NCBI GenBank assembly: GCA_017506865.1
Contig: JAFCMP010000423.1
Location: forward strand, 744,001-808,000
Origin: Tribonema minus
Taxonomy: Eukaryota > Sar > Xanthophyceae > Tribonematales > Tribonemataceae
Reading direction: 5' to 3'
DNA length: 64,000 nt
Under the pieces are notes generated by a model. That model was not told where the DNA came from, ran no database searches, and saw only the letters and a program-made list of their open reading frames with translations. Numbering within the stretch: position 1 is the first letter of the stretch; every line of letters begins with the position of its first letter. Of the stretch, positions 24,701-64,000 are shown one piece after another. Made by a program: the position numbers and the translations under genes.

Positions 24701-27700
24701 ACATGCAGTGCGCTGCCACTGAGGCAGCTGCGAAACCACTGTCTTCTCAAGTTTATTGAGCATCCTGGCGCGGTTGGCGTCAGTTTTCAACATTACACCA
24801 GCTTCTGAGACCGCAGCACTCAAGCTTGGAGCTTTTTACGCCTAAGGCTTGCAGAACAACATCACACCAGCTTTTGACCGCACCACTTAAGCTTGGAGCT
24901 TTTTACGCCTTCAGGTTGCAAAACCTGTCGCCCACGCTTGGGCCTAGTGCGCTCGCTGGAGCAACTGGTCGCATGAGCTGAACGCAGTATCAGTGGGAAA
25001 TGCCTCACAACAACAAGAACACTGTGCTGCAGCGTTGCTTATGCCTGGGAGCAATGACTTAAAGTTTGATGAATGTACACGCTCATCTTATAAGCATGCA
25101 CTCAGAATCGGGCAGCAGCAGTCTGCTTGCCATGTGCTGGTATGGAGTCGTATCCAAATATGGTACACTCCTACGCCTGATGTGGGTCAGGTATACATAC
25201 TTGAAATATTCTGCTAAAGAGTGCCATCTGCGCGGCTGAACTGCTTGAGGCATCCAGCGTCCGTGAGCTTACTGAGCGGCAAGTACCAACCTTGCTGGCA
25301 CAATGAGGCCACTTGCTTGTGCAAAGCCAAGTTCCCTCGTATCGACGCCAATACTGTTGCTGAGTTGCTGTTGGTCAAACCCAATTCTTCAGCCCGCCTC
25401 GCTTCTTCTACTGTGCGAGTTATAGTGCTTGTCGTTCACCTTGTATGTGACCAAACTGTGTGCCCGGCCCTGAGGCCTGATCTTCGCCCCACAATTGGAC
25501 GTCGTGACATGCCACTGTCTTTGTTTGGTTGATTATGGCTGGGGTAGGGTTGGGGTTAGGGTTAGGGTTAGGGTTAGGGTTAGGCGGCAATGCTCCTGAA
25601 GCGCTAGCCTCCTGCCCAGAGGTGTCCAGGCTTGTTGCGCTCGCTGGAGCATCCAAATAACGATAATCCACACACATGAAGGAAGCGTTCTGGCGCCATA
25701 TACAAAGTGCGTGTTTACAAAATGTTATATCATACGAAGTATGTATACGCCCATATGCGAAACCTATATACAAATACGCCCATCCCTGACCCTACTTGCA
25801 AGTACTCACTCATCTACACGAGTTGACATGAAGCTCCAGACACATGCTTTCGAGCTTGAATGACAATCCTTGGGCTGCCATCAGCGTGTACATGGTGGAA
25901 TGTGGTCAGGGTTCCAACCTGAGTCAGTGCGATTCAAGCTTATGAGACCCGTTACAACTGGTGAGAGCCGGGAAGGACTTGATGTGATTTCATCTGACCC
26001 CGATGCAATGTACCGTGTTCGCAGGCTGCTGCTGTAACTTGACGTGTATGCGCTCACACCGCTGGCACGATGCCATTCCTCAGAAGCTCTCATGTTCACA
26101 TTTCTTTCTTTTTGGTCGTGCATGTCAGCTGATGTCATAGGTGGCGCCATCAACAACGACCCACTCAGCAACTTCAAGTGCACCGACTCGGTTTTCATTG
26201 GCAACTCAGGTGACGCTGCTTACCAAACACCCTCAGGTGTCCGGAGGTCTGCAATCTTGTCTCAGTTTCTGCCCATGTGCGTATAGTCTGGCACCTGGAA
26301 GTATTCACAACACCAAACACCAAATGAGAAGAGGCATCGAATGCGCAAGCATTTGGACTACTTGTTGCTGTCACTGGACCCATTTCATGTACTTCGAAGT
26401 ATGCAGCGCTGACAGTCAATGGATACTGAACCAATGACAGATCTACTTGTTCAGCTGCAAGTTTACAAGTCTTTGGTGCAGCAAGGAATGCACTCTCGTG
26501 GTCAACCAATCATTTGTTGCACCCTAAGCAAGCTTGTTGCTGAGAAGTACATCGAGTATACGCAACCGGTGCATGTACATGCATATCGTCCATTATGGTG
26601 ACTTGCCTTGTCAGCTCATGACCTTTGCCGGATGCCGCCCTCGTTGTGGCAGCTGTGGGATCTGGCGGCGCCATCGCCAATGACGGCAACATGACCTGTG
26701 CAACAACGCGGTTCGTGAGCAACTCAGGTACGTGTTGCACCAGTCAAGCACCTGCAAATTACAGAAGTAACTTACTTGTTGAACACGTCGGCTGTGAGCG
26801 CACCGAATGCCGTTACCAACGTACACATTTTGTCACACTGGCGAGTTGAAGCATCCAGCACTCGCATACGAGCCCACCCTCTTTTGTGTGTTGTGCTGCG
26901 GTGCTGAAAGTTTCTGCACCTGAGAGGCCTGTAGCTATCGATCCTTCGGGTATTGTCACATGATATTTACGAAATGTTCGTCGCATTAGCGTGTCATTCC
27001 ACGTGCATGGTGAGGCAATGACAGGGCGCCTTCTGCTTTCTTTCTTTCGTTCGGGGGTATGCTGGTCCTGCGAGGTTATGAGTATGCGATTGTTGGCGCA
27101 TCAGGCTCATCATCATGTGCTGTGCTGTGGCAATTCCGTCTGCACTGATGGACGTGTACTTGTAGGGCCGTACATACAGTACAGTAGGCCCTAAGCTTGA
27201 GCGAATGAACTTTGTGGCTAGAGAGAGAAGCGCCGGCGTCGCATGCGAAAGCAGGGCGCAGGCAGCTAACTGAACTCGAATCACTGATTAAATGGTGGCT
27301 TGCCCCCATAGGTGCAGCTGGCAGCAGCCCACAGCAGATGTGGTCCATCTCTCCCCACCCTCTCCTGTAATGCATGCACATCGAGCAGCAAGCTGCCTAC
27401 CTGCCTGTCAGCAGCTGCCGGTACACACGTGATGATTCACAACACCTGAAAATTTGCATGTACCCATCCCGCTCTCTCAGCTGTGGGCAGCGGCGGGGCA
27501 ATTGGTGGGAGCGGCACCATCTACTGCAGCGCCACCAACTTCTCCGGCAATTCCGGTGAGAGCATCGTGATACCGTTCAGTCTGACACACGCACCAAGCT
27601 GTATTTCCGAGCATGAGAGAGCTGCGCCACCACAGACTGTCGTAGCAGCTGGCGCGTTTCGTGCTGAGCACTGCCGCCAGCATTGTCAAGTGTGCTGACG

Positions 27701-48697: not shown

Positions 48698-48802
48698 TCA
48701 GCTGAGGATATCGTTCAGCCACTGCGAGCTCTTGAGCTTCTGCTTGACGGCAGAGGTCACCTCCTCCGCTGCGTGGCTCGCCGCATTCGTTATCTTGTCC
48801 AT
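48698..48802 (-). CDS. EF-hand gene, last exon
   Basis: 105 nt, phase 0, encoding MDKITNAASHAAEEVTSAVK and QKLKSSQWLNDILS, then TGA at 48700-48698. Acceptor tgttgcag. Confidence 0.85.
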   Translation of the reverse strand: MDKITNAASHAAEEVTSAVKQKLKSSQWLNDILS

Positions 48803-51800
48803 CTGCAACACAGCAACAGATTCAATGACACCGTAAGTGTGAATTTCCAGGAGCACATGAAATACCCGGCCTCCCTCAGGGCCTTTCATTGACAGACGCA
48901 CACAGAAGGGTCAGACGTAAAGGGTGCCTAGCAACTTTCTACCCAGTTGTCCAGTACCCACATAACAAGTGCCTTCGTTTGCTTTGCGGCATGGCTTGCC
49001 GCATTCGGAATCTTGTCCATCTGCAATACAGTGACGGTTTCAATGACAGCAAAGGATTGAACCCTAGGAATACACGAGATACCCGGCCTCTCTTGGGGCC
49101 TTTGGAAATACGAGCCCAAAAAAACGAAGACAGACAGACACTAGGGGGGTCAGACACGTGACGGTGTTTACAGCTGCTGCACGTGGCGGTATTTACAGCT
49201 GTTGTACGAAACAGGTGGTAAAACGGTGCAAGCAGCGCACTGACAACACAAAACATGTTATGATAGGCAGGCATCAGCTCTGGAAGGGGTTGCTGTGAAT
49301 GCGTACTTCAACTCTTGAGTGAAATATCCAAGATGTGGTGCACACAAGCAAAGTTTCATTCAGAGCAATGACTTAGCCCTGCAGGGGATGCAGCCGTGTG
49401 ACATGCCATGCTTGCATTCCCTTGTTCATGCGCAGCAGAATGGCTGTGTACTTTTTGACGTGTCAGGGGGGCGGGGTGTGTGTGTGTGTCTTCGCTATGC
49501 TTTCAAGTACAAAATGCAGCACTTCACTGACATCCCAGATGGAGACGGTGAATAGCTAACATGAGTGCTAAGGAAGAGCCCTTGGACTCTGTCACTTCAA
49601 CCGTGTGAATGGCACTCCCTGACCCCCCCCCGACCCCCAAACACACACTCAAACACCATTCAAGCGTTGGAATGAGGGTGGAAGCAAACAAATCAGCTTT
49701 GCATCTGACCTGCTGCCTGCGCTTTTCCTTCATGTAGATCCGTCTTTCTCTCCAGGCGTCACGGTACTCACCTTCTGCTAGACCACATGAGGCCAAGCTC
49801 TTGTGGACACGGCAACACCAGTCAGCAAGCCGGCTCTGTCGCACATCTGCCCAAGTTCCTAATTATAGAACTGACCTGTTGCCTGCGCTTTTCCTTCATG
49901 TAGATGCGTCTTTCTCTCCAGGCATCGCGCTCCGCTGCGCCCAGCTGTTCGGACGCCACTTTCTCCCTGATCTCCTGGAACTTGAGACCCTTCTTGAGCC
50001 AGAAGTCGCGACCCAGGAACTGCGGCAAGGAGTAGAGTGAGAGTCAGAGTCAGGGACAGATTGAGCCATGCGTGCGTGATCGCACATTGTGCATCGGAGA
50101 GAAGACGACCTGCTGGCATGGCCGTCATTGAGGTTTGTGTACTGCATAGGGCCTCTCACATGGTATTACCATGAGTCGCACGGTTCCTTGCAGGTTTTAA
50201 GCAGCGTACAAACATCGTTGGACGTCTGTGGGTGCGAAAGCAACCGTTGACTCTCTGCTGCCATGACTGCGCTTGCGAAGCGTTTGTTCGGTTTCCATAC
50301 CTTAGAACGCATGGTGTCCTGTAGGTCCTGAACGGGGTAGAACATCTTGGGAAACCTGCGACGGATTCAGAGCAGGCATGCCGTGCTGATCACTGTGACA
50401 GATTGGCTTGCAACAGTGGTGTAATCCCACTTTGTATGATCTGAAACTGATGAACGCATGCCAACGAGGTCCTCCACTTGCATATAATGGGTTCTGGGAG
50501 TACGTGCACCCAGCATCGGAACATCAAGCGATTTGCCACCTGCAAAGCCTGCAGGGACTGGTCGAGATGAATTGTGGCCTGAACAAAACTCAAAAAGGTG
50601 CAGCTGCAAGACGTTTTGAGCCACATGTGGCTTTTGTTGGCCCTGACTGTGCAGCGCATGAAGAGAATGTGTCATCGAGCAGATTGCCGCTAGCAGCGCA
50701 CATACTTCCAAACTGTGTACACACGTATACCAGTATATGGTTCCAAGCAGTAGGCCCGGTGCCCAACTTCACGAAATGGATAAACTTCAAGATTGAACTT
50801 ACCCAGGGAGTCAGCGTCTATGATACTTTCTTCACTGACACTCCCATTGCTTCAAGCATATGCCTTGAAACAGTATGTTTTCAAAACCTCAACTTTGCTG
50901 GATTGGAACACATAACAATACGACACTTCAAGTTACCTCTTGTCCAGTCCCAGGAAGTCTGCGTACATGATTCTTCCTCCGTTCACTGTCGAGAGACTGA
51001 GCTCTCTGAGACCCTTGATGACCTGGCCCGTTGCTGAGCGGTGCAGCATATTGAGCAATGCCAATAGATCGTCAAACGAAATGTAGCCTGTGCGCGGCGG
51101 GGGGGGGGGGGGGTACATGTGTTAATTGATGGTGCGCATGTTAAATCTCTGACCTGAATCATCGCTGCGCAATGCAGCATGTTGAGCAATGCCAGCAGGT
51201 TTCCTCATGTAAATTAGTGAAATGTAGCCTGCGAGCAGGAGGGGTATGTACATGAGTTGTTGGTATGTACATTGAACTGGCCGTTGCTGAGCAGTGAAGC
51301 AAGTCGAACGTGATGTAGCTTCCGGAAAGAGGGGGGGGGGGGGGGGGGGGTATGCGATATGATATGTTGAGCAGGTCCAAGAGGTCATAGTCTAGACCTT
51401 AATGTCGCCTGACAGGGAGTGCGTATGTAGGGATACTGCAGAAGTTGTTACCCAGTCCTAATGCCTAGAAGGCAGTTGGGACTTACTGTGATGTGGCTTG
51501 CAGGGAAAAGTATGGCGTCATCACAGCTAGAGTACACTTCCGACTGGAAAAGCTACGTGCCACCATGCAGTCGGAAACTGTCTGCCATCATACATACATA
51601 CCTCAGCATCTTCGCTCAGCATGCCAGGAAGTATCTGCGATACATACCTGGCACCCGCTCAAGCAGCATTCACACAGGTAAGTATATAGATACATGTTTG
51701 TATGTTCGAGTACCCTTGCCATCTGCATCCTGGATCGTATAGCCATACGACAGGAGATCTTTCTCCTGAGCACGGCAGTCGCACGCAGAGTGCACTGCAT

Positions 51801-54800
51801 TCTGTCTGGGAGTATGTATTGATTGCGCTGGTACATACCTTTACCATCTCCATCTTAGGCGTATGTGAGTCGCTCGTGATTCGGTCGCATGTATGCCCTG
51901 GGGTAGGTATGGGTGTGGTGATATACATACCCTTTGCCGTATACTTACCCTTGCCATCCATATCCTGGACTGTGTAGGCGTACGTGAGCAGCTCGTTCTT
52001 CCCGAAGAGGCAGTACGTGCAGACTACGCGGACAAAGTCTCCAAAGTCCAAAGTTCCGTCCTCATCCAAGCTCTCCATGAAGGTGAACAGGAAGTCACTG
52101 GCAGCAGCCACAGTACGAGGATTAGGGTTAGGGCTAGGGTTAGGGTTAAAGTTCGGGCTTATGATCAGGTGCAGGTTGGAAAGGGCAGTCAGCAGACAAA
52201 GTAGCACGGGGGTCAGGACTGCTGAAGTGGCGAAAGTGGCATGAGCACATCTGGTGGGGTGCAAGCGTGCAGCAACCAGCACATGCTGATGAGATCAGCA
52301 GTACAGAATGGAGTACACTCCTAGTACAGCATGAGATATACTTTGGAGGGCAATCTACTTCTGGAGCATACTCTGTGAACTGTAGCCCAGCCCTTGCCCA
52401 AAGCAGCACTACGTTCTGTGTGTTTGCACTTATGCTCACCCTAACCCTAATCTCAACTCTAACCCTAAGGTGGCCTCAGCACTCAAACCTCCTAGTGTCA
52501 GCAGCATAACACAGTAACCTAGTCTAGATGCAGCTCAAACATTTGCTCCTGCCCGTTGGTGACATCGTCAATGTGGCATGGCAGTATGGAACTGAGCAGT
52601 CTGGTTGTACTAAATGGCTGTGGCCTCACCTGAACTTGCTCCTGGGCCACCGGATGTACGCATAGAACTGCTCAATGGTAATGAGGCCTTTCCGCTCCTC
52701 GTCCATCGCGGCAAAGTGGTCTATGAACCTGCGCGCACGAACGACGAACGGCTTCCATAAGTATATGTGCGTCTAAGTAAGGTGGTAACGTGGTTCTGAA
52801 ATTGGATTCCTTCTTCTCCATGAGTCCTCAACTGGTGTGATTTATGCTGGTGGTGTATGCAGAAGCAATCGGGCGTGATAAGGAAGACTTTATCGGGAGT
52901 GCTCTGTGTGCTTTGTGAGATGACCCTGATTGTCTCAACTCACGCGTCTGGTGTTCAGTGTTGTAATTGGCGCTGGTGAGTGAGCGCACAATGAGTGGCC
53001 CACCTCCATATACTTCAATGTGGCAGTTCAAAGTGGTATTTCAAAGCGCCATGCTGCATGTTCCCCATTGTCTCATGGGGATGGAGGAACGGATTTTGAC
53101 AACCAGCTTAGACAAAAAGAGGCGCCAGCCGGGTGCATGAGGCCACCTACTTTACCTCAAACTTGAAGTATAGTAGAAGCTAAAAGTTAGGTGTCACCAG
53201 TGCGTTTCACTCCTTCATCGCCAGCAGCGCTGCGCGCAGCAGTCTTAGCGGCAAACTGGACGTACACACATACATACATACGTTTACACCCACCACAGGC
53301 TTAGATGTACAATGTTGTACACGCACTTTGTGTTAACATGGGACACCGGAGTAGATGTAGCACGGCTCACCTCTCAATGTCAGCAGCCTTCAGTGCAAAG
53401 GCCTGCATGGCAAACGATACCTGCTGATACAAATACATTTCATATATAAACGGCCACCAGAGCGCATATAGCATGGCTCACCCTTCAATGTCAGCGGCAC
53501 TGAGCGCAAAGGCCCGTGTGGCAAACCACGCCTGCATACCTACTCATACAAATACATAATTTCATACATATGTGGCAACCAGAGCGCATGTAGCATGGCT
53601 CACCCTTCAATGTCAGCAGCATTGAGCGCAAACGCCTGCATGGCATGGCAAACCGTGCTTACATGCCTAGTGATACAACTACAAAATGCATGCATATATA
53701 TTGGACACCAGAGAGCGCATGGCTCACCTTTCAATGTCAGCAGCATGGAGCGTGAAGGCCTGCATGGCAAAGCATACCTGCATATACTGATGTACATATC
53801 TACTAATGTGAAAAAATATTTCATACATACACGGCAACCAGAGTGCATGTAGCATGGCGTACCCTTCAATGTCGGCAGCGTCCCACGCGAAGGCCTGCAT
53901 GGCAAATCATACCTACATATACATGTGTAAATATCTACTGATACAAAAACACATTTCATACAGACATGGCAACCAAAGCGCATGTGTCGTGGCTCACCCT
54001 TCAATGTCAGCAGCATTGAGGGCGAAGGCCTGCATGGCAAACCGCAGGGGGTCTTCGGCGTCCTTGTGACGCTTGTCTTCCATCTCTTTCGCCTGCGCCA
54101 GCTTGCCCTCGAGCTGCTGCAGCTTGGCCAGCAGCCGAGCATCGCCGGGCATTGCTGATAGCATACGCCTTGCCTGTAAACGCACGAAGATTTACATGGA
54201 CATCGGCGGCGTGAGAGTTGGTTATGATACATCAAGGTTGCGACATCTGATGAAAAACACAGATTCATTGCTGTGGCGCCCGGCACCGCTGACAGCATAC
54301 GCCTCGCCTGGCCGTGAGAATATTGTGCACGATGTGGGAGTCGGTGTTCGCAAAATCAATTTGTGGTGGGGTAATGACATGTGATCAAACAGACTTTATC
54401 GGTCACTGTAGCAGCTATGTAACACTGGGCATCGCTGATCGCATAGAAGTACGCCTTGCCGAGCGGCGACAGTTTTGAATATTGTACATGCTAGCACGCG
54501 CCTTGCCTAGCAGCCAAGTACCAAATCATTGTGTGCACAGCGCGAGAGCTAGGGTTGGTCGCTTTGTGTGAGAGTTGTGAGGGGGCGGGGAAACAGAAGG
54601 CGTAACTGACGTAACCGCCTGACGGTTGCGCACAACCAGGCACCGCTGACAGCGTGAGTCTGACCTAGTAGAGTGAGCATTGATATATATGAAGTATACA
54701 GAATTGACGGGGGGGGGGGAGGGGGGGGGGGGGGGGGGGGTGCGCCCATGGCACATCAACTGCAAGTATGCAGTTGGACTCAACGAAAGATTTGACGCAG

Positions 54801-57800
54801 ACGCACGTCTGCAATCTCATGCGCACATGATCCATAGGGAGAAGGTTAACGTCGCAGACCTTTAATTTGAAGAATGCAGCTTTGAATTGAATCAACTTCA
54901 ATATTCACTGATGCTGTTTCACCTCCCCGATGTCGTGTTGAAGTTGGTTGACCGGGGGGATAACTTGTGCGCCACGGCCGCCAAGTTACAGCACTTCAGC
55001 TTGAAGTATTCAGTTCAAGGCTGAAGCAGTCAGTTCAAACTCACCTCTCCGATCTCATGTTGAACGTGGTTGACGGGGGGAATAACTTGCGCGCCGCGGC
55101 CACCGAAGAAGATCCACAGTGTTGCAATTTAAAGTATTTTATTGAAAAGTTGAAGTATTCAATGATCTCCGATCAGTGTTGCAATATGAGATATTTTATT
55201 TAAGAGTTGAAGTCATCAATGAACTCACCTCTCCGATCTCGTGTTGAACGTGGTTGACAGGTGGGATGACTTGCGCGCCACGGCCGCCGAAGCGGATCCA
55301 CAGCGTTGCGTCTGCCAGGCCAAATTCGGACAGGTTGCCGGGTATCTTGCGGCACCCTGACGCCTTCTGCTGCGCTTCGTCCTGAGAGGAGAGCACAAAT
55401 TGGCAGCGATGTGAATTTCTGCGCGAGTCAATGTTGCACATGATTAGTGTCCTGACCCTACCCTAAACCCAACCAGATACCTAACCCGAACCTACTAGTA
55501 GACTGGTACTAACCCTAACCCTAGCGCTTTCTGTTGCGAGTCGACCTGCAGGAACAGCGCAGGCCTGGAGAAGCAACGATGTCACACCCTGTGGTGAACT
55601 TGGTGGCCGCAAACAGTGCTGAATCTTAGGGTTAGGTTTAGGGTTAGGGTTAGGGTCAGGGCAGCGCAGGAACGGCAATGATGTCAAACTCTGTGCCAAC
55701 AGGCAACTTGGACTTCTGGGTAGCCTTGAAGCGTGCCAAGTGCAAGTGCGCAGAAGCACATTTTGCGACAGCCCAACAACCTTCATCTGGGTGACTTAAA
55801 TACACTACGCAGGTGCAGGACAAAGGTAAATCGGTCACAACACACGTGTATTGGGCACCCAAACAGCTGGGGTGCCAAATCTTCTTCCACCGGTGGCAAA
55901 CTTCAAGAACTTAAATGAAAAATGAAAAACGAATCAAAAAGATCGTTGAGCTCCTAGCTATAATATTCTCAATACCCCAACTTTGTGCTCCTCGCAAATT
56001 ACCAGAACCAGGCTACTGCTGATGACGCGCCTCACTGCAGTGCGGATCTGGCACTTGAAGTTTGTTGTTGCAATAAGCTGTGGCACCCATGATGCCACTG
56101 CTCTGGTGGCCATCCTATATGCAAACCACCACACATTGTCCACTGCCTCCAGGTTGCACATCAAGTACTTTGAGCAATGATCAGCTGACATCCAAAAACT
56201 GCCAGTGCCAATCTGGCGCTTTGGATTAGCACCCCCCCTTGAGTACCCCGAGATGTTTCACAAGCATACGCTTCAGGAAACGGACATGTCAGTGAGCATT
56301 TGCCATTTCAAATCAGGAAACTTGCGGTCATCCATACATACCTTATCGTCATAGGCGACTTCAAGACCTTCAATGCCGCTGCTCTGGCCATCCCGCTTGC
56401 CCCAAATAACCAGAGTCGGCCCGCCGCCACCGGTCTTGGCACCAAGTGCGGGATGCGCGAACCTGTCGTATCCCTCTTTTCGCAAGTCCTGTCGCAGCAG
56501 AAAGTGTAACTGGTGACACTCAAGCACGCAGAGACTGTGTGATACAGGCAGACGATTGGTCCTTACACAAAATGAAGTTAGCAGGTGCGCATTGAAATGG
56601 CCGTTCGACGCAAGCCTCAGATGTCTAGCTCTGCACCAACACCCCGTCCGAGCTGTGATGCCTAGCACGGGGCGCAAGTGCCGCTGTGACTTGATGTTTT
56701 GCAGCTGTTGCTGTGAACCTCAATCAATGACGCCGATGCACGCAGCGCATCAGCTCTGAAAGCCAGCCTTTCGAGCAGCAACGTCAGGCAAGCACACTCC
56801 ACGTAGGTGACAATAACTGATCAAATCCGTGCATGTCTGTGGCGTGTACTGGATTTCAAACGGCTGACTTGTACATACCTGGTGTTCACATTGTGCACCC
56901 ACACTGTTACCACCCCAACCGCAACCCTACTGGAGCTCTAACTTCAATGCCAGTCCTGTCCCGTACCTTGTACAGCTTGTGCCCGGGGTCGAAATGCGCC
57001 AGCTGCAGCTGCGCCCAGATATTTGTCAGGGTCAACGGTTCTCATCGGGCCTGGGACTGACATGTACCTGCCAGTGGTGTTAACATACAACTTCTATATG
57101 CACCCGAATTGTTACCAGACGAGCCCTACTTGAGCTCTGACTTCAATATCGGCCCTGTCCCATACCTTATACAGCTTGTGGCCAGGATCAAAGTGCGCCA
57201 GTTGCAGCTGTGTCAGAAACTCGTCAGGGTCGATGGTCCTCTTCTGCCAGATATCTACGGCCTCCGAGCGGCCGACACCGCGCGCGAGTTTCTCAAAGTG
57301 CGGGAAGCCCGCGTTTTTGAGGCGCATCTGCTCCTCGTAATTGCGCCCTGTCTCCTCGTTGCCAATCGTGAACCTGCGCAGCATAATATTGCAATGTCGC
57401 GGTTATAAAGAGGTGCTGCAGTGTGAGGATTTGTGGGCCACCGACGAAAAGCTATGTGCATTCTGTGCTTCCTATTTTTTTCAACAATGGGCATGATGAC
57501 ATTATCAGGCACATGCAGAATCAACATGAGCTTTTAACAGTCAACCTACAGTGGTCATCATAGTATTTTGAGCACGCTTGTATTTGCGCCCCGTCTCCTT
57601 GTTGCCAATGGTGAACCTGCGCAGCGCAATGTAACAGAAACTGAGTGCTACACATTTGAAGCTGATGTTCTACAACCTCAGAGAGTTTTGTGCTGTCACA
57701 GTGGGCGTCATGTATTTGCATACTCAGTGTGATACTTGTTCAGAATAAAGTGTTCGCTATAACTGCCTTGTCGCATGCCAATGGTGAACGTGCGCAGCGC

Positions 57801-60800
57801 AGAGTGGCGGTTACACAGAGGTGTACAGGGTCAGAATTTGTGGGCCGCCAATGAACACATTTGAACGCTCTCAAGCGGCCGCCTCCCCCCCCCCTCCCCC
57901 CCCCCCCCCCCCCCCCCCCCCCCCACGCACACACCACTCTCACCCTGTTGCTATACATCATATGCCACGGATTTTGTGCTTCGTGGTTTTTGCAAGGCAT
58001 GATGCATGTTTCAGGTACGTACAGAATCAGCAGGAGCGTGCAGTCAGCATGCAAGTGTCATTTTATGGTTGCACAATATCACGAGCACGCTCGTAGCTGC
58101 GCCCTGTTTCCTCGTTGCCGACGGCGAACCTGCAATGTGACAATTACAATGCGACAGTCATTATGGGTGCAGGCGTGAAGTTGCGAGCGTGTGTTACAAC
58201 CTCAGAGTTTTTGTCACAGAGGGCGTAATGTATCTGCGGACTCAGTGTGGGACTTGTTGAGAATGAAGTGTTTAACAGAGGTGCATCGTTGCCGATGGTG
58301 AGCCTGCGCAGCGCGCAATGTGGCAGTTACACAGAAGTGCACAGAATCAGGATCTGTGGACTGCCGATGAAACGAGTAAATGCATTTCGTGCTTCGTGTT
58401 TTGAAGCGATCGTTGACTTGATGTACTTCACTGTTGAGTTCAGAATGTGCAGTGCAGTCTCGCACCTTCGCAGTACGGGGGCAGGTTCTGGTGTGACACA
58501 ACAAGAAGTACGTCATTTGTGCCTGAAGCGGTAGCCCTCGCCTCAGAGTTGCCGCAGGCATTCTCTGTGGGCTGCGTTTGTGAAACATAACGAGCTGTGC
58601 AGTGCTCTTCCGATGAACAGCGCATTCCTTTCGGGTTGAGGGTAGGTTTAGGGTCAGTAACAGTAATCCTAGGTACTTTGTCCTGCCCCAAAGAATGTGT
58701 AGGTGTAGTGCAGTTGGTGTCAGAGCCGTTGGAATATTGTGCACCTCAAGATCTTGCGCGCATTATGGCCTTAGTTACATCATGATGACATGATTCAACC
58801 CGCTTGGGTTTAGTTGGTGAGTACATATCATGTCATTGAGCTCGCCGGAACTGCAAGCACTGACTGCAACATGGTGGTTGCAATACTAAAGCACATAAAT
58901 GTAGACGACCGGTGACACGACTCTGTGAGAGCACAATCGCAGTAGAGCTCTGGTGCAGCCCAAGATTTTGCCTGCAACGTGGCAGCATTCGCACACCCCA
59001 TGTCTCCGTATCAAGCTTTGATTAGCACAAACACGAATCGGCATTCACTGCAAGTGAAGGCAGACATTGCAGCATCACGGTGGTGCTATCAAAGCCCAAC
59101 CCTAACCCTAACCCTAGCCCTAACCATAACCCTAAGGAAAATCACCCAAATAACCACGCACGAGCAAGCCAAACCACAGTACGTGTACATGCTGTTTGCA
59201 CTGCAAAGGCATCTATTTTACAATTTGCAGTTGAAGTTATCATGGAGAGTCACACTCACATGATTGCTGACACGCCCTCCACCTTCCCGAGCCGTATCTT
59301 GTGCTTTTCGCGTATGGCCGCCTCCATGGCCGCCTCCTCGGTTTGAAATTGCAAACTGAAGGGCGCCACCGGCTGTGTGAGGTGGGATACCGCGTTTGCT
59401 GCCTGCAGAGGACAAACAGGGGGCACTAATAATGATGAATGGCCACAGCTCAAACGGTGGACCGCATGCAAACCTGCATTCGTTGCCTGCAGCCAACAAC
59501 CGGGGTGGGGGGGAGGGGCTGGACGTGATGAAAAGTTAAGTCGCAGTGGAGACGATGCAACAGACACGGATGAAAAATCTAAACTCCGCATTTGCTGCCG
59601 GCGAGACGCTGAGGGGCAGTCATGAGCAAATGATCCTGAGAGCAGGCGGACAAACGCTGACGAAAGGGTGCTGCCGATAGCGTGAAACACGGCACTTGCT
59701 GTCTGCGAAAGAGGGAACACTTGAGATGCCGGCTGCTATCTGTGTCAGGTGTTACAGAAACAGTGGCATGGGTTGCGGCACTGCAACTGCACAGTGGGCA
59801 CCACGGTGTTTGCTGTTCCATGAGGTGGCACTTGGCACCTGTGCTGATGGAAACCAATAGACGCTGCTGAGGTAGTAGGGCGCTGCGCAGACTAGGCTGC
59901 TGCATAGGAATTAAACCTTCGGAACACACGGGTTCCTGGCCTCCCTTGCAGCCTGCACAACCCCACATCCATAAGTGCTGATAGAAGCAAGATGTGTGGG
60001 TGCTGGGATAAAGCAATTGGGGTAGTTTGAGGTAAAAAATTACAGGTGTCCGTCCAAGACAATTGACGTTCTGAAGTAGCAGGATTCAATCAAAATACCT
60101 GAGCGCGCTGTCCTGAAGCTAGGTCGTGATTAGGGGGTAGGCGTAGGTTTTAGCAGTTGGCTGAGCAAGCAGCCATCTGCTGCTACATGAAAGAGCACCT
60201 TAGACGCGCCTGCATTGAGATGTCCTAGATGATTTACAGTACACTGTCTGTTACATGAGAGAGCACCTTAGATGCGCCTGCATCAATATGGCCAAGATAA
60301 GTCACAATGAATTTTTAAAATAAAAAAACATGCTCAGAATCACCAGTCGCACAAGGCTATGAGCAGGCTGTCTAGACAACTGCTCATTAACTTCTTGTGA
60401 TGTCCCTGCTGACAGCATGTGAAGCAAAAGAGACAAGTGATGGTAGGAATTGAATGTGGGGCTGAGGGTTAGGGTTAGGGTTTGGGGTTAGGAAAAAAGT
60501 GTTTAGGGTTAGGTAAACTTAACCCTAAACTTTAGGGTTAGGTAAAACTAACCCCCTAAACCCTAACCCTAACCCTAACCTAACCCTAACCCTAACCCTA
60601 AGCCGTACTGCAAAGCCGATGCCGTTTACACTGCAGATATTGCAGTCCTTTGCGCTGTATAAGTCCCACGTTATGCCTGGCTATCGCAGCATGGCTCCGA
60701 TGTGCCAGCTTAGGGTTAGGAACCCCAACCCAAGCCTGGCCCTCACCCTGGCCCTCGGTGTGTGCTGCTTGAATCAATGTACATTCCAGACCTTCCAGGC

Positions 60801-63800
60801 TGTGTGCCAGTATTTGAATGTCAACACTGCAAATTTAGTTACATCAGGTTTCGCATCAATGTAATCTCCAAACTCGTACGACCTATACCATTGGTGTCCA
60901 ACAATTCTTTGAAATTAGTTTAAAACTATTACTTCTAAGTCCCACGATCTTATTAGCCTAATTGCTGCTGGTTTTTTTTTTACTTGCCTTGGGCAGCAGG
61001 TCGTGGTGACGCTCCTCTTCCGCTGCAATTCTTGTGTGGCGGTATTCAGATGTCAACACTTAGGTTTACTTGAATTTACCTTGTGCAGCCCACTTCTCAC
61101 AGTCAAAACATACAGGTACTCAAATGCCAAGTCCACTTCAACTTGCCTTGTGCAGCAGGCCGTGGTGACGCTCCTCTTCTGCATCGTACAGGCCTGCAAT
61201 ACCGAGCTCCGCGGCCTGCTGGTTTGCGAGCTCCTGTAAATGTTGCAGTCAACAGGGGTCAAGGTAAGGATTAGTAGCAGCCGCGCAACGCTTGAGGGTG
61301 CTACTTAATGTATGCAACTTCAGGTTCTGAGAACCACTGGGCACAGCAAGGAGGGCCGCCATTGCATGGATACAAAGAATGAGAATCAGCCGCACTACGC
61401 CTGAATGCGCTAGTTCAAGTACATGATTTCAAGATCTGGAAATCACTGGGGGCAGAGCAAGGAGATCGGCCATTGCATGATACGTGCTACTTGTATGAGC
61501 CTTCAAGCTCTGAGGACCAGCAAGGAGAGTCACCATGATCGCGGATGCATCCCTCCACTCCCAAGCAAACATGACCCTTGAATCTTTTGCAGCTAGACCA
61601 CATGACACTTGGGTGGGCCTACCAGAATTGGGATTGCTAGGGTTAGGATTAAACTAGAAGTAGTCAGGAAACCGCACGCGCTTGCACAGTCAGCGGCACA
61701 ATCACTCAACTCAAAGGCAGAATGCAACGCAAACACACTGCTCCACTGACCTTTGCCTTGGCCCGTGCTTCGGCGGCTGCGGCCGCTTGCGCTGCGGCCT
61801 TATCCTCTGCTGCCTGGCGCTGAGCCTCCTCCTGCAGTAAGCACATACAGTTACATGGCACGCACTACTAAGTCGAATATTTGAAGTACCTGAAGTAGTT
61901 CTTTTATATTAGGTAATGTTGAAATTACTTTTGTGAGCCCCAAGCAAAAGTCAGACTGGCTCACAGGAGTAAATTACCGAGTCAAAATTTACTGGAGGAG
62001 GTTGTTTGCATTCAGTACTTTAAATGTGTGAGTGACTGCAGCAGCTCTTCAGTACGCTTGGCCTCTGTGGCACCTAGTACTTCAATCCTGACTCAGTTAA
62101 AGTTCATCTCCGCAGGTGGAGTTTATCTTGCACCTCTTTAGCGCGTTTGGCCTCCTGCTTGTGCTGGCGTATCCTCATTTATAGATGAACGAATTTTTAA
62201 AAATTACTGTTGTGAGCCCTAAGCAAAAGTCAGCATGGCTCACAGGTACAGATTAAAAGGTTCAAACTTACTGCAGGTTGTTTGCATTTAGTTCTTGAAA
62301 TATGCGAGTGACTGCAGCACCTCTTTAGCGCGCTTGGCCTCTGTGCGCCTAATGCTCTAATGCTCTGATTCAGTTGAAGCTCATCTCCTCAGCTTAAGTT
62401 TATTTGCACCTCTTTAGCGCGTTTGGCCTCCTGCTTGTGCTGGCGTATCCTCATCTGGAGGCTGGCCACGCCGTCGCCGCCCTCCTCCGCTTCCTTGCTC
62501 AGCTCCAGTTGAAGCTGCAGCATCGCCTGCGCGCAGCACCACAGCAGCAGACGCTGAGGCATGAAGAGCATAACGAGCACCGTAATTCTGAAGCACGAAG
62601 GGCATAGCAAGCACGGTAAACCTACTGTAGTCTCACATACTAATCCTGTGTTGAGCTCAGCGATGCCGCACTCTCAAAGCCTTTATGCTTTGCTCTAGCT
62701 CCAATTGAAGTCAATGTTGAAGTTGCACGATCACCTGCGACGTAGCAGAAACGCAAGCATGAAGGGCGTGTCAACAACCCTAGCCCTAGTATCAGAACCT
62801 GACACTATGTTGCACTGATGCCGACTCTCATGGCCTTTGCTGAGCTCCATTTAAAGTTGAAGTTGCAGCATCATGCAGTTGTATCATTACAGCCGAGGGG
62901 CACTCAAGGGCTCATACGTGCTGTAAGGTCTGATGGCACACTCCCAAAGACAGTAGACTTCTCTGGCTGCATCAGCGGTGAACTCCATCAATCGAGTACC
63001 ATGCAAGTCTTCAAAATTGTTTGATGACACGTCAGTGAGTACAAGTCCCATATTCAGATAGCTTTGTCTGTGTATGCTTGATATACCCCAGCAGGGAAAG
63101 CTTGCATGAGCTCAATGGGAGCATACTGTGGTACATGTTGTATATGACATGGTGCAAAATAGGATTGCCGCCCCTCAAGCGAAGTACAAGTCAATGGGTA
63201 CAAGTCATTGAGTAAGTACCATGTGAGCCTCAGGCGAATCCGGTCCGCCTGCAAGGGCGCTCATGGCCTGTCCCGAGTCCTCAATCTTGCGCTCGAGTTC
63301 GCTCAACTTGGCTCTTCGCTCCACCTCCATCGCCTGCACAACCGACATGAAAGACCATGGCGAAAAGCAGCTGTGGCTGAGTTTTGATGAACATGCAATA
63401 CAAAATACCAGATTACCAAACGGATCGGCAAAGCTCCTTGGAAGCATCCAGCCCTGAGCCAAGCCTTCACTCTGAAACCAAACTTGATGCACACCTTCGG
63501 AGCTGCGTCGTCACCGCCGGTATCAGCCGCTGCGTCCTCCGCGTAGCAGCGCCGTCAAGCCTACCCTAACAGTAACCGTACCTGCAACTCCGACCTTAGT
63601 CCTAGCCCTAGCCCTCCACCTTAGAAGCTGCGCCGTCACCGCCTGCATCAGCCGCTGCATCCTCCGCATCCGAGCCGCTACCGCTGCCGCCGCCGCCGCC
63701 GCGCAGTATATGAGCCTCAGACGGATCAGCAGAGCACCTTGGGATTATGTAATCCTATAGAAAACGTGCACCCGAACTGTAACACCAACGCCCACCTTTG

Positions 63801-64000
63801 AAGCAGCATCATCAGCGCCGGCATCCGCCGCTGCGTCCTCCGCTTCTGCGCCGCCGCCGCGCAGCAATCCACCAGAGCGCAGCAGCCCCGCCAAGCCCTT
63901 GCGGGAGCGTGCCGCCTCCTCGCGTGCGCGCTTACCGCTCAGGACATCGTGCTCTTCGCGGAGGTGTGCCACACGTGTGCGCAGCCGTGCCACGGCCGCT
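48698..64000 (-). CDS. Coiled-coil and EF-hand protein, at least 17 exons, 5' end outside the window
   Basis: Exons in transcript order: 64000-63796, 63333-63220, 62526-62410, 61831-61751, 61233-61147, 59402-59260, 57373-57166, 56488-56342, about 55725-55672 (3' edge unresolved), 55381-55229, 54173-53998, 52728-52630, 52097-51949, 51087-50937, 50355-50301, 50019-49876, 48802-48698. All but the ninth join in frame with GT (one GC) donors and AG acceptors; about 730 residues are visible. The first five exons encode a Glu/Lys/Arg-rich coiled coil with Ala/Asp linkers. The middle (NEETGRNYEEQMRLKNAGF, HFDPGHKLYK, LADATLWIRFGGRG) is unrecognised. Then come four EF-hand-like units: DEERKGLITIEQ, a shortened DEDGTLDFGDF, a canonical DMDGKGYISFDD and a degenerate VNGGRIMYADF. 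The C-terminus is basic and helical (WRERRIYMKEKRRQQ), ending WLNDILS. A calcium sensor or cytoskeletal/ciliary protein is plausible, but the family was not identified. Confidence 0.83.
48985..49120 (-). repeat. Copy of the last exon's start with flanking intron
   Basis: The minus strand repeats 'gcagatggacaagat', then 'cgaatgcggcaagcca' (MDKIPNAASHAAK in the same frame as the last exon), and upstream a segment with 'ggcctctcttggggcc' that matches 48860-48890. The whole unit is a ~195-bp tandem duplication. Confidence 0.88.
49708..49785 (-). repeat. Copy of the exon 16 3' end in the next intron
   Basis: The minus strand reads RDAWRERRIYMKEKRRQQ, identical in protein to the exon end, followed by gtcaga. 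It is preceded by an acceptor-like 'ctagcag', so it could be spliced in as an extra exon. Confidence 0.92.
49876..50019 (-). CDS. EF-hand gene, exon 16
   Basis: 144 nt, phase 0-0, encoding FLGRDFWLKKGLKFQEIREK, VASEQLGAAERDAW and RERRIYMKEKRRQQ: a basic amphipathic helix. Acceptor ttgccgcag, donor gtcagt. Confidence 0.86.
50301..50355 (-). CDS. EF-hand gene, exon 15
   Basis: 55 nt encoding FPKMFYPVQDLQDTMRSK. Acceptor gtcgcag, donor AAG/gtatgg (phase 0). The following and preceding introns show no clear copy. Confidence 0.82.
50937..51087 (-). CDS. EF-hand gene, exon 14 (EF-hands 3 and 4)
   Basis: 151 nt encoding YISFDDLLALLNMLHRSATG, then LSTVNGGRIMYADFLGLDK. It completes a canonical loop (D-M-D-G-K-G-Y-I-S-F-D-D) and carries a degenerate fourth one. 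Acceptor gcgcacag after a C/G-rich tract, donor AAGAG/gtaact. Confidence 0.87.
51155..51350 (-). repeat. Two copies of the exon 14 start in the preceding intron
   Basis: Near 51155-51235 the minus strand has 'gcaggctacatttcac', then 'ctgctggcattgctcaacatgctg', and near 51285-51330 'gaagctacatcacgttcga' with 'cactgctcagcaacgg'. Both match the first ~70 bases of exon 14 with small losses. Confidence 0.85.
51695..51875 (-). repeat. Copies of the exon 13 3' end in the next intron
   Basis: Near 51712-51750 the minus strand reads TIQDADGKG followed by a donor-like gtactc, and near 51840-51865 it reads DGDGKG followed by gtatgt. Both repeat the end of exon 13 (TVQDMDGKG). Confidence 0.85.
51949..52097 (-). 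CDS. EF-hand gene, exon 13 (EF-hand 2 and start of EF-hand 3)
   Basis: 149 nt encoding SDFLFTFMESLDEDGTLDFG and DFVRVVCTYCLFGKNELLTY, ending VQDMDGKG. The DEDGTLDFGDF loop is about two residues shorter than canonical. The third loop is split between this exon and the next. Acceptor ctgccag, donor AAGG/gtaagt. Confidence 0.88.
52121..52150 (+). repeat. TTAGGG-type tract
   Basis: Four to five TTAGGG units just upstream of the acceptor of exon 13; a CCCTAA tract lies at 52436-52470 in the same intron. Confidence 0.85.
52630..52728 (-). CDS. EF-hand gene, exon 12 (EF-hand 1)
   Basis: 99 nt encoding FIDHFAAMDEERKGLITIEQ and FYAYIRWPRSKF. The loop D-E-E-R-K-G-L-I-T-I-E-Q lacks the usual Glu at position 12, so binding may be weak. 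Acceptor gcgcag, donor TTCAG/gtgagg. Confidence 0.86.
53371..53930 (-). repeat. Five tandem copies of the exon 11 3' end in the next intron
   Basis: Copies near 53861-53906, 53727-53772, 53603-53652, 53481-53527 and 53371-53416, with a period of about 115-135 bp. Each encodes a variant of FAMQAFALNAADIE followed by a GT donor (gtgagc in most, gtacgc in one), with intron-like sequence rich in 'acatacatac' between. The real exon end at 53998 is the first member of the array. Confidence 0.95.
53998..54173 (-). CDS. EF-hand gene, exon 11
   Basis: 176 nt encoding a coiled-coil segment (ARRMLSAMPGDARLLAKLQQ, LEGKLAQAKEMEDKRHK) and the end LRFAMQAFALNAADIE. Acceptor tttacag, donor GAAGG/gtgagc (phase 2). 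Confidence 0.86.
54705..54740 (+). repeat. Poly(G) tract
   Basis: About 30 G interrupted by one A, in intron 10. Similar G tracts lie at 51101-51113 and 51331-51350. Confidence 0.9.
54914..55115 (-). repeat. Two copies of the exon 10 3' end in the next intron
   Basis: At 55045-55115 and 54920-54990 the minus strand repeats GGRGAQVIPPVNHVQHEIGE (slightly changed in the second copy), each followed by gtgag. They lie downstream of the exon they copy. Confidence 0.92.
55229..55381 (-). CDS. EF-hand gene, exon 10
   Basis: 153 nt, phase 0-0, encoding DEAQQKASGCRKIPGNLSEF, then GLADATLWIRFGGRGAQVIP and PVNHVQHEIGE. Acceptor cctctcag, donor gtgagt. No named domain. Confidence 0.85.
55451..55526 (+). 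repeat. Degenerate CCCTAA-type tract
   Basis: Scattered CCCTAA/ACCCTAAACC units in the intron before exon 10. A further TTAGGG tract lies at 55625-55660. Confidence 0.8.
55540..55600 (-). repeat. Partial copy of exon 9 end and exon 10 start
   Basis: The minus strand has 'tgacatcgttgc' and 'cctgcgctgttcctgcag' (compare tgacatcattgc and cctgcgctg in exon 9), followed by 'tcgcaacagaaagcg', which resembles the exon 10 start 'gcgcagcagaaggcg'. Confidence 0.7.
55672..55725 (-). CDS. EF-hand gene, exon 9 (3' edge unresolved)
   Basis: The minus strand reads KSKLPVGTEFDIIAVPAL after an acceptor 'gctacccag'. Instead of a donor it then runs into CCCTAA-type repeats at 55662. A second partial copy at 55546-55590 has the missing end (PALFLQ) followed by gtcgac and then a copy of the exon 10 start. 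I could not find splice sites that join these in frame, so the exon is either misread or damaged. Confidence 0.5.
56342..56488 (-). CDS. EF-hand gene, exon 8
   Basis: 147 nt, phase 0-0, encoding DLRKEGYDRFAHPALGAKTG, then GGGPTLVIWGKRDGQSSGIE and GLEVAYDDK. Acceptor tgcgacag, donor gtatgt. No domain recognised and no extra copies seen. Confidence 0.85.
56965..57030 (-). repeat. Copy of the exon 7 3' end in the next intron
   Basis: The minus strand again encodes QLQLAHFDPGHKLYK followed by gtacgg. Further 5' in the copy the frame is broken. Confidence 0.87.
57166..57373 (-). CDS. EF-hand gene, exon 7
   Basis: 208 nt encoding FTIGNEETGRNYEEQMRLKN, then FPHFEKLARGVGRSEAVDIW and a DPDEFLTQLQLAHFDPGHKL-YK end. 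Asp/Glu-rich but without a canonical EF loop. Acceptor cgcag, donor AAG/gtatgg (phase 0). Confidence 0.85.
57575..58325 (-). repeat. Four copies of the exon 7 start in the preceding intron
   Basis: At about 57580-57620, 57775-57800, 58090-58132 and 58287-58315 the minus strand repeats 'tgcgcag/gttcaccattggcaac' and, in two cases, the following 'gaggagacagggcgcaa' region with changes. They copy the acceptor and first codons of the exon at 57373. A long C tract lies between two of them (57888-57924). Confidence 0.88.
59096..59135 (+). repeat. CCCTAA-type tract
   Basis: About six degenerate CCCTAA units in intron 6 of the EF-hand gene. Confidence 0.85.
59260..59402 (-). CDS. EF-hand gene, exon 6
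   Basis: 143 nt, starting in phase 0 and ending in phase 2. It encodes AANAVSHLTQPVAPFSLQFQ, then TEEAAMEAAIREKHKIRLGK and VEGVSA. Acceptor ctctgcag, donor ATCAT/gtgagt. No named domain. Confidence 0.83.
59455..59705 (-). repeat. Copies of the exon 6 start in the preceding intron
   Basis: Near 59470-59493, 59578-59605 and 59690-59706 the minus strand repeats an acceptor-like region followed by 'gcaacgaatgcag', 'gcaaatgcggag' or 'gcaagtgccg', matching the start of exon 6 (gcagcaaacgcgg). The last two are short and less certain. Confidence 0.65.
59881..59945 (+). mobile_element. Possible LINE 3'-tail fragment
   Basis: 'cgcagactaggctgctgca' equals the LINE stop region and 'ggcctccctt' its tail, with a different middle part. 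Short and uncertain. Confidence 0.4.
60465..60602. repeat. Head-to-head telomere-type repeats
   Basis: TTAGGG units on the left (60465-60545, degenerate) change to CCCTAA units on the right (60518-60602) through alternating inverted blocks. This gives a foldable inverted array in intron 5 of the EF-hand gene. Confidence 0.88.
60980..61045 (-). repeat. Copy of the exon 5 3' end with its GC donor
   Basis: About 60 bp repeat the end of exon 5 (EEERHHDLLPK in the same frame) followed by gcaagta. The unusual GC donor was duplicated along with the exon end. Confidence 0.85.
61147..61233 (-). CDS. EF-hand gene, exon 5, with GC donor
   Basis: 87 nt, phase 0-0, encoding ELANQQAAELGIAGLYDAEE and ERHHGLLHK. 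The acceptor is tttacag. The donor is AAG/gcaagt, a classical GC-AG intron start; no usable GT lies nearby. Confidence 0.82.
61751..61831 (-). CDS. EF-hand gene, exon 4 (Ala-rich helix)
   Basis: 81 nt, phase 0-0, encoding EEAQRQAAEDKAAAQAAAAA and EARAKAK. Acceptor ttactgcag, donor gtcagt. No extra copy was seen. Confidence 0.83.
62040..62345 (-). repeat. Copies of the exon 3 3' end in the next intron
   Basis: At about 62124-62172 the sequence equals the exon end MRIRQHKQEAKRAKE followed by gtgcaag. Shorter, more decayed copies ending 'aagaggtgct' lie at about 62318-62340 and 62045-62070. Confidence 0.82.
62410..62526 (-). CDS. EF-hand gene, exon 3 (coiled coil)
   Basis: 117 nt, phase 0-0, encoding AMLQLQLELSKEAEEGGDGV and then LQMRIRQHKQEAKRAKE. 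Acceptor gcgcgcag, donor gtgcaa. Confidence 0.85.
63220..63333 (-). CDS. EF-hand gene, exon 2 (coiled coil)
   Basis: 114 nt, phase 0-0, encoding AMEVERRAKLSELERKIEDS, then GQAMSALAGGPDSPEAHM. Acceptor ttgtgcag, donor gtactt. Confidence 0.85.
63495..63700 (-). repeat. Two extra copies of an exon 3' end in the next intron
   Basis: At 63621-63690 the peptide-equivalent is DAEDAAADAGGDGAASK, and at 63495-63550 it is YAEDAAADTGGDDAAPK. Each is followed by a GT dinucleotide (gtggag, gtgtgc) as in the real exon at 63796. They lie downstream of the exon they copy. Confidence 0.88.
63796..64000 (-). CDS. EF-hand gene, first visible exon (coiled coil)
   Basis: Encodes LRTRVAHLREEHDVLSGKRA, a Gly-rich turn (LLRSGGLLRGGG) and the end AEDAAADAGADDAASK. 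The exon is cut by the window edge. Donor AAAG/gtgggc. Two copies of its 3' end follow in the intron. Confidence 0.8.

Follow-up and report, generated by a model that had tools for sequence, protein, structure and literature searches.

Serial copies of exon edges in adjoining introns of Tribonema minus genes: probable tandem duplication across splice junctions

An EF-hand gene of the xanthophyte alga Tribonema minus has introns that repeat, sometimes several times over, the edges of the exons beside them. How did these copies arise, is the pattern peculiar to this gene, and do the copies serve any purpose? Rubisco fragments suggest an alga whose plastid is of red descent. The gene lies at one end of the window, the whole 64,000-nucleotide stretch that was analysed (contig JAFCMP010000423.1, positions 744,001 to 808,000), and its coordinates are collected in Table 1.

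Copies of exon edges in the EF-hand gene

The coding sequence remains open for 710 codons and then meets a stop. Exon 1 is truncated by the end of the window; its acceptor is predicted in the sequence beyond, at position 64008. A chaining predictor recovered 14 of the 16 exons exactly, which is a consistency check only, as this same gene had supplied the training data for its signals and its first coding model.

Smith-Waterman comparison of each exon with each intron separates neighbours sharply from the rest. None of the 210 non-adjacent pairs scores above 16, while 14 of the 30 adjacent pairs do, with a maximum of 61. At a score of at least 20, reached by 0.15% of 666 unrelated exon/intron pairs, copies are found at 13 of 31 edges, 24 copies in total. 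The exon 1 acceptor just beyond the window has four upstream copies. Exon 62526-62410 has two copies of its end: the outer one is identical over 45 nt, and the inner one, 21 nt long, scores 19 and falls under the threshold.

These results confirm the original prediction in part: it had named 13 edges, 11 of which have intronic copies above background. All eight of its donors (63796, 62410, 61147, 57166, 55229, 53998, 51949 and 49876) are copied downstream. Among its acceptors, 57373 and 48802 hold, as does 51087, less cleanly, but 59402 (adjacent score 11) and 55381 (score 14) do not rise above background. Its count of at least eleven exons becomes ten at the threshold used.

Table 1. Exons of the EF-hand gene and intronic copies of their edges, in window positions
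Feature	Position	Strand	Remarks
EF-hand gene, 16 exons	48698..63999	minus	open 2133-nt CDS and EF-hand matches
Exons 1-8	63999-63796, 63333-63220, 62526-62410, 61831-61751, 61233-61147, 59402-59260, 57373-57166, 56488-56342	minus	
Exons 9-16	55381-55229, 54173-53998, 52728-52630, 52097-51949, 51087-50937, 50355-50301, 50019-49876, 48802-48698	minus	
Two intronic copies, donor-side end of exon 63999-63796	63706-63620, 63554-63495	minus	Smith-Waterman scores 38 and 34
Two intronic copies, end of exon 62526-62410	62341-62321, 62178-62134	minus	
Copy, end of exon 61233-61147	60988..61023	minus	GC donor retained
First upstream copy, start of exon 57373-57166	57577..57616	minus	AG retained
Second upstream copy, start of exon 57373-57166	58090..58129	minus	AG retained
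Copy, end of exon 57373-57166	56967..57046	minus	intron part repeated too
First copy, end of exon 55381-55229	55045..55125	minus	GT retained
Second copy, end of exon 55381-55229	54923..54982	minus	GT retained
Upstream copy, start of exon 54173-53998	54277..54307	minus	AG retained; absent from the original prediction
Five-copy array, end of exon 54173-53998	53374..53906 (53906, 53771, 53645, 53527, 53415)	minus	GT retained in 5 of 5
Copy, end of exon 52097-51949	51714..51779	minus	
Upstream copy, part of exon 51087-50937	51150..51194	minus	starts 24 nt into the exon
Copy, end of exon 50019-49876	49710..49763	minus	4 of 4 differences synonymous
Upstream copy, start of last exon 48802-48698	48986..49020	minus	AG retained

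Spread among genes and relation to splice junctions

The copies had been presented as a peculiarity of one gene, and this does not hold. On C423, the contig that carries the EF-hand gene, 44 of 104 edges have copies with this gene included, and 31 of the 73 edges outside it do. Six loci of unlinked kinesin genes, on C13, C516, C141, C180 and C246, have them at 25 of 57 edges, where the null is 3.4% of pairs. Among the kinesin exons, 26 of 31 overlap a kinesin family match. Two of the 42 kinesin copies are doubtful in that the edge is not reached (L025 off 938, which is glycine-rich, and L031), and the exon-1 matches of L029 are partly a run of G. L026 was left out of the counts, having no predicted gene; its family-match coordinates gave no copy (best score 16). 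An assembly artefact is a negligible prospect: the copies differ from their exons by 0-36%, contain indels and occur on six contigs.

Edge counts for C423 and C1 were made on 106 exons, namely the 16 curated EF-hand exons and 90 of 189 predicted ones (those beyond the EF-hand gene that scored 9 or more and were not transposon-like); two of 193 edges were dropped for introns shorter than 60 bp. The coding model combines the window gene with coding segments. Of 200 coding segments, 122 were retained and 78 dropped as low-complexity, transposon-like or scoring below 9. Predictors sometimes call copies exons, so that some exons of other genes may themselves be copies, which may dilute the codon test there; one such copy (A- 130842-130777) is included in the edge counts. 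A gene finder retrained on its own predictions strayed into frames that were merged or transposon-like, and was abandoned.

Some loci are nearly devoid of arrays. The C1 stretch has copies at only 2 of 87 edges, and C522, C101 and C50 have next to none or none; three C50 matches scoring 22-28 are all GC-rich simple sequence away from exon edges and were not counted. These array-poor loci argue against a purely genome-wide process, which does not predict them. The words AACTTCAA/TTGAAGTT and telomere-like words were considered as a cause and set aside: array-bearing and array-free introns are both enriched in them, so that they cannot explain the difference.

The arrangement of the copies is strongly polar. 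Copies within 12 nt of the edge that they abut comprise 33 of 36 on the acceptor side and 44 of 47 on the donor side, or 77 of 83 together. As in internal tandem duplication, they are head-to-tail, on the same strand and near their source. In addition, the repeat unit reaches past the exon into the intron: the intron part is also repeated in 31 of 54 copies tested at p<0.05, where 2.7 are expected, while intron homology is undetectable in the other 23. Polarity and repeated intron flanks together point to tandem duplication of units spanning the splice junction, in keeping with the original proposal that an existing junction is duplicated and the outer copy left in the intron.

The step between copies has a median of 162 bp (IQR 128-212, n=75). 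This median brought nucleosome spacing to mind, an idea that, given the wide spread, was kept as a lead only. Ageing outward from the exon is weak, as the farther copy is more diverged in 32 of 51 non-independent pairs (18 less, 1 tie; p 0.03); it is not clear by eye in the kinesin arrays. Among introns of A, the 28 with copies are longer than the 15 without (medians 1029 and 626 bp, p 0.016).

Repeats equally common away from junctions would have spoken against the original prediction; in the loci examined they are not equally common there. Sixty of 77 repeat clusters involve a junction and 17 are intron-only, where simulated random duplication gives 23-27% junction clusters (binomial 2e-20 at 0.27), an excess that relies on this simulation, on gene models that are in part predictions, and on a clustering able to merge intron-only events into junction arrays. 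Simple clusters alone, counted by hand, give 21 junction against 12 intron-only (p 1e-5).

The excess bears on whether duplication is purely neutral and falls at random in introns, edge copies being visible only because their constrained exon member decays more slowly. That detection bias is real and has the expected direction, and the codon ratio of other genes matches neutral decay; the simulation, however, already includes the bias. Moreover, when junction clusters are scaled to the 57% of copies whose intron part is independently visible, about 34 against 17 remain, still an excess (4e-9, a scaled figure). Random neutral duplication is quite improbable as the whole account.

The explanation that we consider probable is serial head-to-tail tandem duplication of junction-spanning units at the same splice junctions, in many genes of this genome. 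Each unit would be about 130-210 bp, consisting of a few dozen bases from the end or the start of the exon and about 100 bases of adjoining intron, and the same junctions would be struck repeatedly in many genes. The junction attached to the exon body presumably stays in use while the other copy and its splice site end up in the intron, and repetition would build arrays and lengthen introns. Break repair or replication slippage, more frequent or better retained at exon-intron borders, could be the source. Most copies would then decay; those of the EF-hand gene may first have been used for a time, or have exchanged sequence with the exon.

A stronger version makes splice junctions hot spots, with junction-anchored outward intron growth in near-nucleosome-repeat steps that leaves splice-competent, partly constrained edge copies, at least some used now or formerly. 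We consider it rather unlikely; its odds are lowered by the acceptor AG, which is retained in 22 of 32 copies and so not above neutral simulation.

Constraint and possible use of the copies

In the EF-hand gene, copies differ from their exons at rates of 0.095, 0.062 and 0.302 by codon position, a ratio of 0.26 (bootstrap by edge 0.19-0.32) where 0.56-0.64 is expected under neutrality. Differences between copies follow the same pattern (0.134, 0.103, 0.321). CpG mutability and composition were considered as causes of the third-position excess and do not explain it. The bias suggests past or present constraint, although other measures are mixed.

One reading is that the copies work as alternative coding segments, which enter some transcripts by splicing and are under purifying selection. 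The codon pattern fits it; so does the lack of stops among 22 EF-hand copies, and the splice sites of 20 of these (13 of 14 donor-side, 7 of 8 acceptor-side) reach at least the 10th percentile of the scores of real sites. Yet few copies are accompanied by a frame-keeping partner splice site (1 of 14 on the donor side, 2 of 8 on the acceptor side), 4 of the 22 contain frameshifting gaps, and the exon/intron divergence ratio, 0.62, is near the neutral range of 0.66-0.72. Other C423 genes have a near-neutral codon ratio of 0.51 (0.40-0.62), with 5 stops and 13 frameshifts among 53 copies, and kinesin copies have a ratio of 0.53 with stops in some. The exon/intron divergence ratio in the other genes is 0.45, though their codon ratio is near neutral, and frame-0 partner sites on C423 outside the EF-hand gene number 13 of 28 and 6 of 22, against 17 and 10 when the real exon is searched in the same way. 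The AG retention given above likewise argues against selection, and on balance functional use is unlikely.

Ordinary cassette exons are unlikely in particular, because frame-keeping partner sites are rare; isoforms with repeated segments, which the original prediction had allowed for, do not find support in this ordinary form. The copies may still act as decoy splice sites, since those of the EF-hand gene look usable as judged from sequence.

Synonymous-looking differences could also result, with no splicing role, if the copies repeatedly exchanged sequence with a diverged allele or a paralogue since lost, or were kept alike by gene conversion. Such exchange would account as well for the missing GC-to-AT decay at third positions of EF-hand copies, where 36 GC-to-AT changes stand against 50 AT-to-GC. 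But in the one stretch tested, 57000-57400, the only genome matches are the stretch itself and its own intronic copy, and conversion should homogenise the intron spacers too, yet these diverge more. We regard exchange as rather improbable.

Relation to known forms of duplication

The arrays bear on how introns lengthen and on how the spliceosome distinguishes a genuine edge from an almost identical one 150 bases away. With dozens of natural copies that differ in age, the genome offers material for studying splice-site choice, decoy avoidance and intron growth. If confirmed genome-wide, the junction excess would also suggest some process, mutational or selective, linked to exon-intron borders.

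Tandem exon duplication, which gives rise to mutually exclusive exons, places an exon and its splice site in an intron. Here too exon sequence and splice site are copied into introns, but the copies are partial: one edge is duplicated, and the second, frame-keeping splice site of a whole exon is usually missing. Introner-type mobile elements would place similar sequence in introns of different genes; the one stretch compared with the genome, 57000-57400, has no match elsewhere in it, and the exons of the EF-hand gene match adjacent introns only. Gao and Lynch (2009), cited in PMC4974935 and PMC3488318, reportedly described internal gene duplications spanning splice sites. These arrays resemble them in being head-to-tail within a gene with splice sites included, and differ from the reported description in being serial at a single junction, present at many junctions of one gene and in excess over intron interiors.

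Intron gain in which an exon segment containing AGGT is tandemly duplicated (Rogers 1989; Hellsten 2011), outlined in PMC4974935 and also in PMC2891723, likewise yields an extra pair of splice signals. The original prediction had invoked this route, and it is not supported here: units carry part of a pre-existing intron, which they enlarge, and no new intron positions were seen. Rather than a new intron opening with a copy of the downstream exon start, exon-start copies sit upstream within an existing intron, mostly behind their own AG and not at the donor. Fill-in at staggered induced breaks (PMC8355091) is a further way in which mutation can produce short tandem duplications; the overhangs there measure about 43-50 bp, less than the steps of these arrays. 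Such arrays were not found described in the literature searched, which leaves out most subscription papers. The type of event is already known; what is new is its serial, junction-favouring form in many genes.

Exon-edge copies in the EF-hand gene

The genome searched comprises 158 Mb in 554 contigs, with the window at C423:744001-808000, and the stretches analysed besides the window are its flanking sequence (together stretch A, C423:684001-848000, numbered so that subtracting 60000 gives the window position) and stretch B (C1:100001-200000). The EF-hand gene joins 16 minus-strand exons into a 2133-nt open frame of 710 codons and a stop, and its product resembles EF-hand proteins at residues ~470-605. 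Of the 16 exons, 14 are reproduced to the base by a custom chaining predictor whose training drew in part on the same gene. Exon 61233-61147 is followed by a GC-AG intron whose GC donor, at 61146, is retained in one intronic copy.

Alignment of all its exons against all its introns gives scores above 16 in 14 of 30 adjacent pairs (maximum 61) and in none of 210 non-adjacent pairs. With the copy threshold set at 20, a score that 0.15% of the 666 unrelated pairs reach, the gene has 24 copies, spread over 13 of its 31 edges. The original prediction had named eight donor-side and five acceptor-side edges; all eight donors and three acceptors carry copies, acceptors 59402 and 55381 drop out, and acceptor 54173 joins the list.

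Spread over other loci and probable junction preference

The phenomenon had been described for one gene, a scope that proves too narrow. Stretch A holds 81 copies at 44 of 104 edges, 31 of 73 outside the EF-hand gene, versus copies at 2 of 87 edges in B (Fisher, 7e-12). Kinesin genes were picked by family profile to obtain exons less dependent on the custom predictor; a family match covers at least part of 26 of the 31 exons taken. Six kinesin loci carry 42 copies at 25 of 57 edges, against a null in which 3.4% of unrelated pairs reach threshold because the motors are paralogous. A seventh, L026 on C101, has no copies, and a random C50 stretch with long exons has none at any exon edge. Exon-edge copying is widespread yet patchy across the loci examined.

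All local direct repeats were scanned in 13 loci (noise, 2 of 3000 unrelated comparisons). Equal abundance of repeats away from junctions would have refuted the original prediction, and it is not what these loci show: in gene models that are partly predicted, 60 clusters outside B include an exon edge and 17 are intron-only; B has one of each. Simulated random duplications in the same genes, aged with the exon constrained and the copy free, yield 23-27% junction clusters. Restricting the count to simple clusters, those with no more than two pairs, leaves the excess in place (21 junction versus 12 intron-only by hand count, p 1e-5). The best reading of these results is that tandem duplication has recurred with a preference for splice junctions; the original observation is real, mostly as described, and wider.

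Features of the loci examined, with kinesin copy counts
Feature	Location	Observation
Kinesin L029	C516	18 copies
Kinesin L027	C13	12 copies
Kinesin L028	C141	6 copies
Kinesin L030	C180	3 copies
Kinesin L025	C246	2 copies, one doubtful
Kinesin L031	C522	1 copy, doubtful
Exon	A minus, 130687-130475	four upstream copies of start, four downstream copies of end
Repeat cluster	A minus, oriented 39323-39970	probably an array of EF-hand gene exon 1; scored intron-only because exon 1 is outside the scanned stretch
219-bp unit, three repeats	window 20108-20747	consensus start CAGCAGGTGAGG, donor-like; possibly another exon-edge array
TTAGGG/CCCTAA telomere-like arrays	window 25541-25584, 55626-55661, 59098-59135, 60554-60601	short, noncoding
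Runs of 32-40 C or G	window 21175-21208, 54709-54740, 57885-57924	
Long frames	A 152112-157469; B 53213-58570	one difference in first 60 residues; probably a retroelement
Similar coding segments	B minus, 13650-13419 and 10735-10494	3 kb apart; maybe whole-exon duplication

Other features of these sequences are listed alongside. The introns examined show a strong enrichment of telomere-like words, and the words AACTTCAA and TTGAAGTT occur at about 20-28 times expectation in introns of scanned loci, whether or not those introns hold exon-edge arrays. Fragments of a plastid-type gene for the Rubisco large chain, read by eye on the reverse strand, lie within long contigs at L003 (C334) and L004 (C112); they are probably of the red type, which would point to an alga with a red-derived plastid. 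Search identifies the C112 fragment as Rubisco (first matches listed 8bdb, 6ftl, 5mz2).

Origin and divergence of the copies

Acceptor-side copies lie upstream and come within 12 nt of the exon start in 33 of 36 cases, while those on the donor side are found downstream and extend to within 12 nt of the exon end in 44 of 47; these counts include the two B copies, each edge being searched only in its own adjoining intron. The same tendency appears when whole coding segments are searched against both flanks. For donor edges, ungapped identity is ~0.87 over the final 20 bases of the exon and drops to ~0.35 within some 16 bases of intron, and gapped comparison finds the intron part of the unit also repeated in 31 of 54 copies. 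Polarity and repeated intron sequence bear out the proposed mechanism, tandem duplication of a unit spanning the junction. Successive copies are a median of 162 bp apart (IQR 128-212, n=75). The farther copy is more diverged in 32 pairs and less in 18, with one tie, which weakly supports outward growth from the exon; the kinesin arrays give a mixed picture of outward ageing.

For a free copy against a constrained exon, the neutral ratio of per-site differences at codon positions 1+2 to position 3 is 0.56-0.64 by simulation and 0.61-0.63 when the mutation spectrum seen in introns is applied. The observed ratio is 0.26 in the EF-hand gene (bootstrap by edge 0.19-0.32), 0.51 in other genes of A (0.40-0.62) and 0.53 in kinesin copies (a point value). 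Differences between one intronic copy and another in the EF-hand gene also fall mainly at third positions. None of its 22 copies contains a stop and four have frameshifting gaps; the 53 copies in other genes of A include five with stops and 13 with such gaps. Further measures point in different directions. The exon/intron divergence ratio is 0.51-0.53 over all copies versus 0.66-0.72 simulated, with 0.45 in other genes and a near-neutral 0.62 in the EF-hand gene. Judged from these comparisons, EF-hand gene copies diverge in a codon-like manner without overall slowness, and those of other genes show the reverse. Third positions changed from GC to AT 36 times and from AT to GC 50 times in the EF-hand gene, against 106 and 55 in other genes, whose copies display a GC-to-AT decay that the EF-hand gene's do not. 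The codon-like pattern in the EF-hand gene could reflect earlier use of the copies, their exchange with the exon, or rapid synonymous change in the exon. Finally, GT or GC is retained in 39 of 43 donor copies (neutral simulation retains the same dinucleotide in 0.67-0.81), and AG in 22 of 32 acceptor copies, no more than neutral.

Consequences and known processes

The copies had also been proposed to allow isoforms with repeated segments. Ordinary cassette inclusion requires a frame-keeping second splice site, and in the EF-hand gene only 1 of the 14 copies on the donor side and 2 of the 8 on the acceptor side have one. Elsewhere in A the counts are 13 of 28 and 6 of 22, which do not exceed the 17 and 10 that the same search gives at the real exon. 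This scarcity of partner sites makes cassette inclusion an unlikely general role. Copy-bearing introns have a median length of 1029 bp, compared with 626 bp for introns lacking copies (p 0.016), so the duplication process may also enlarge introns.

Internal tandem duplication was reportedly described by Gao and Lynch in 2009. Serial, junction-favouring duplication in many genes was not reported in the literature searched; the cause of the junction preference and any splicing role of the copies are directly testable. Tandem duplication within genes is an established process, as is intron gain by the AGGT model (PMC4974935, PMC2891723), and short tandem duplications can result from break repair (PMC8355091).
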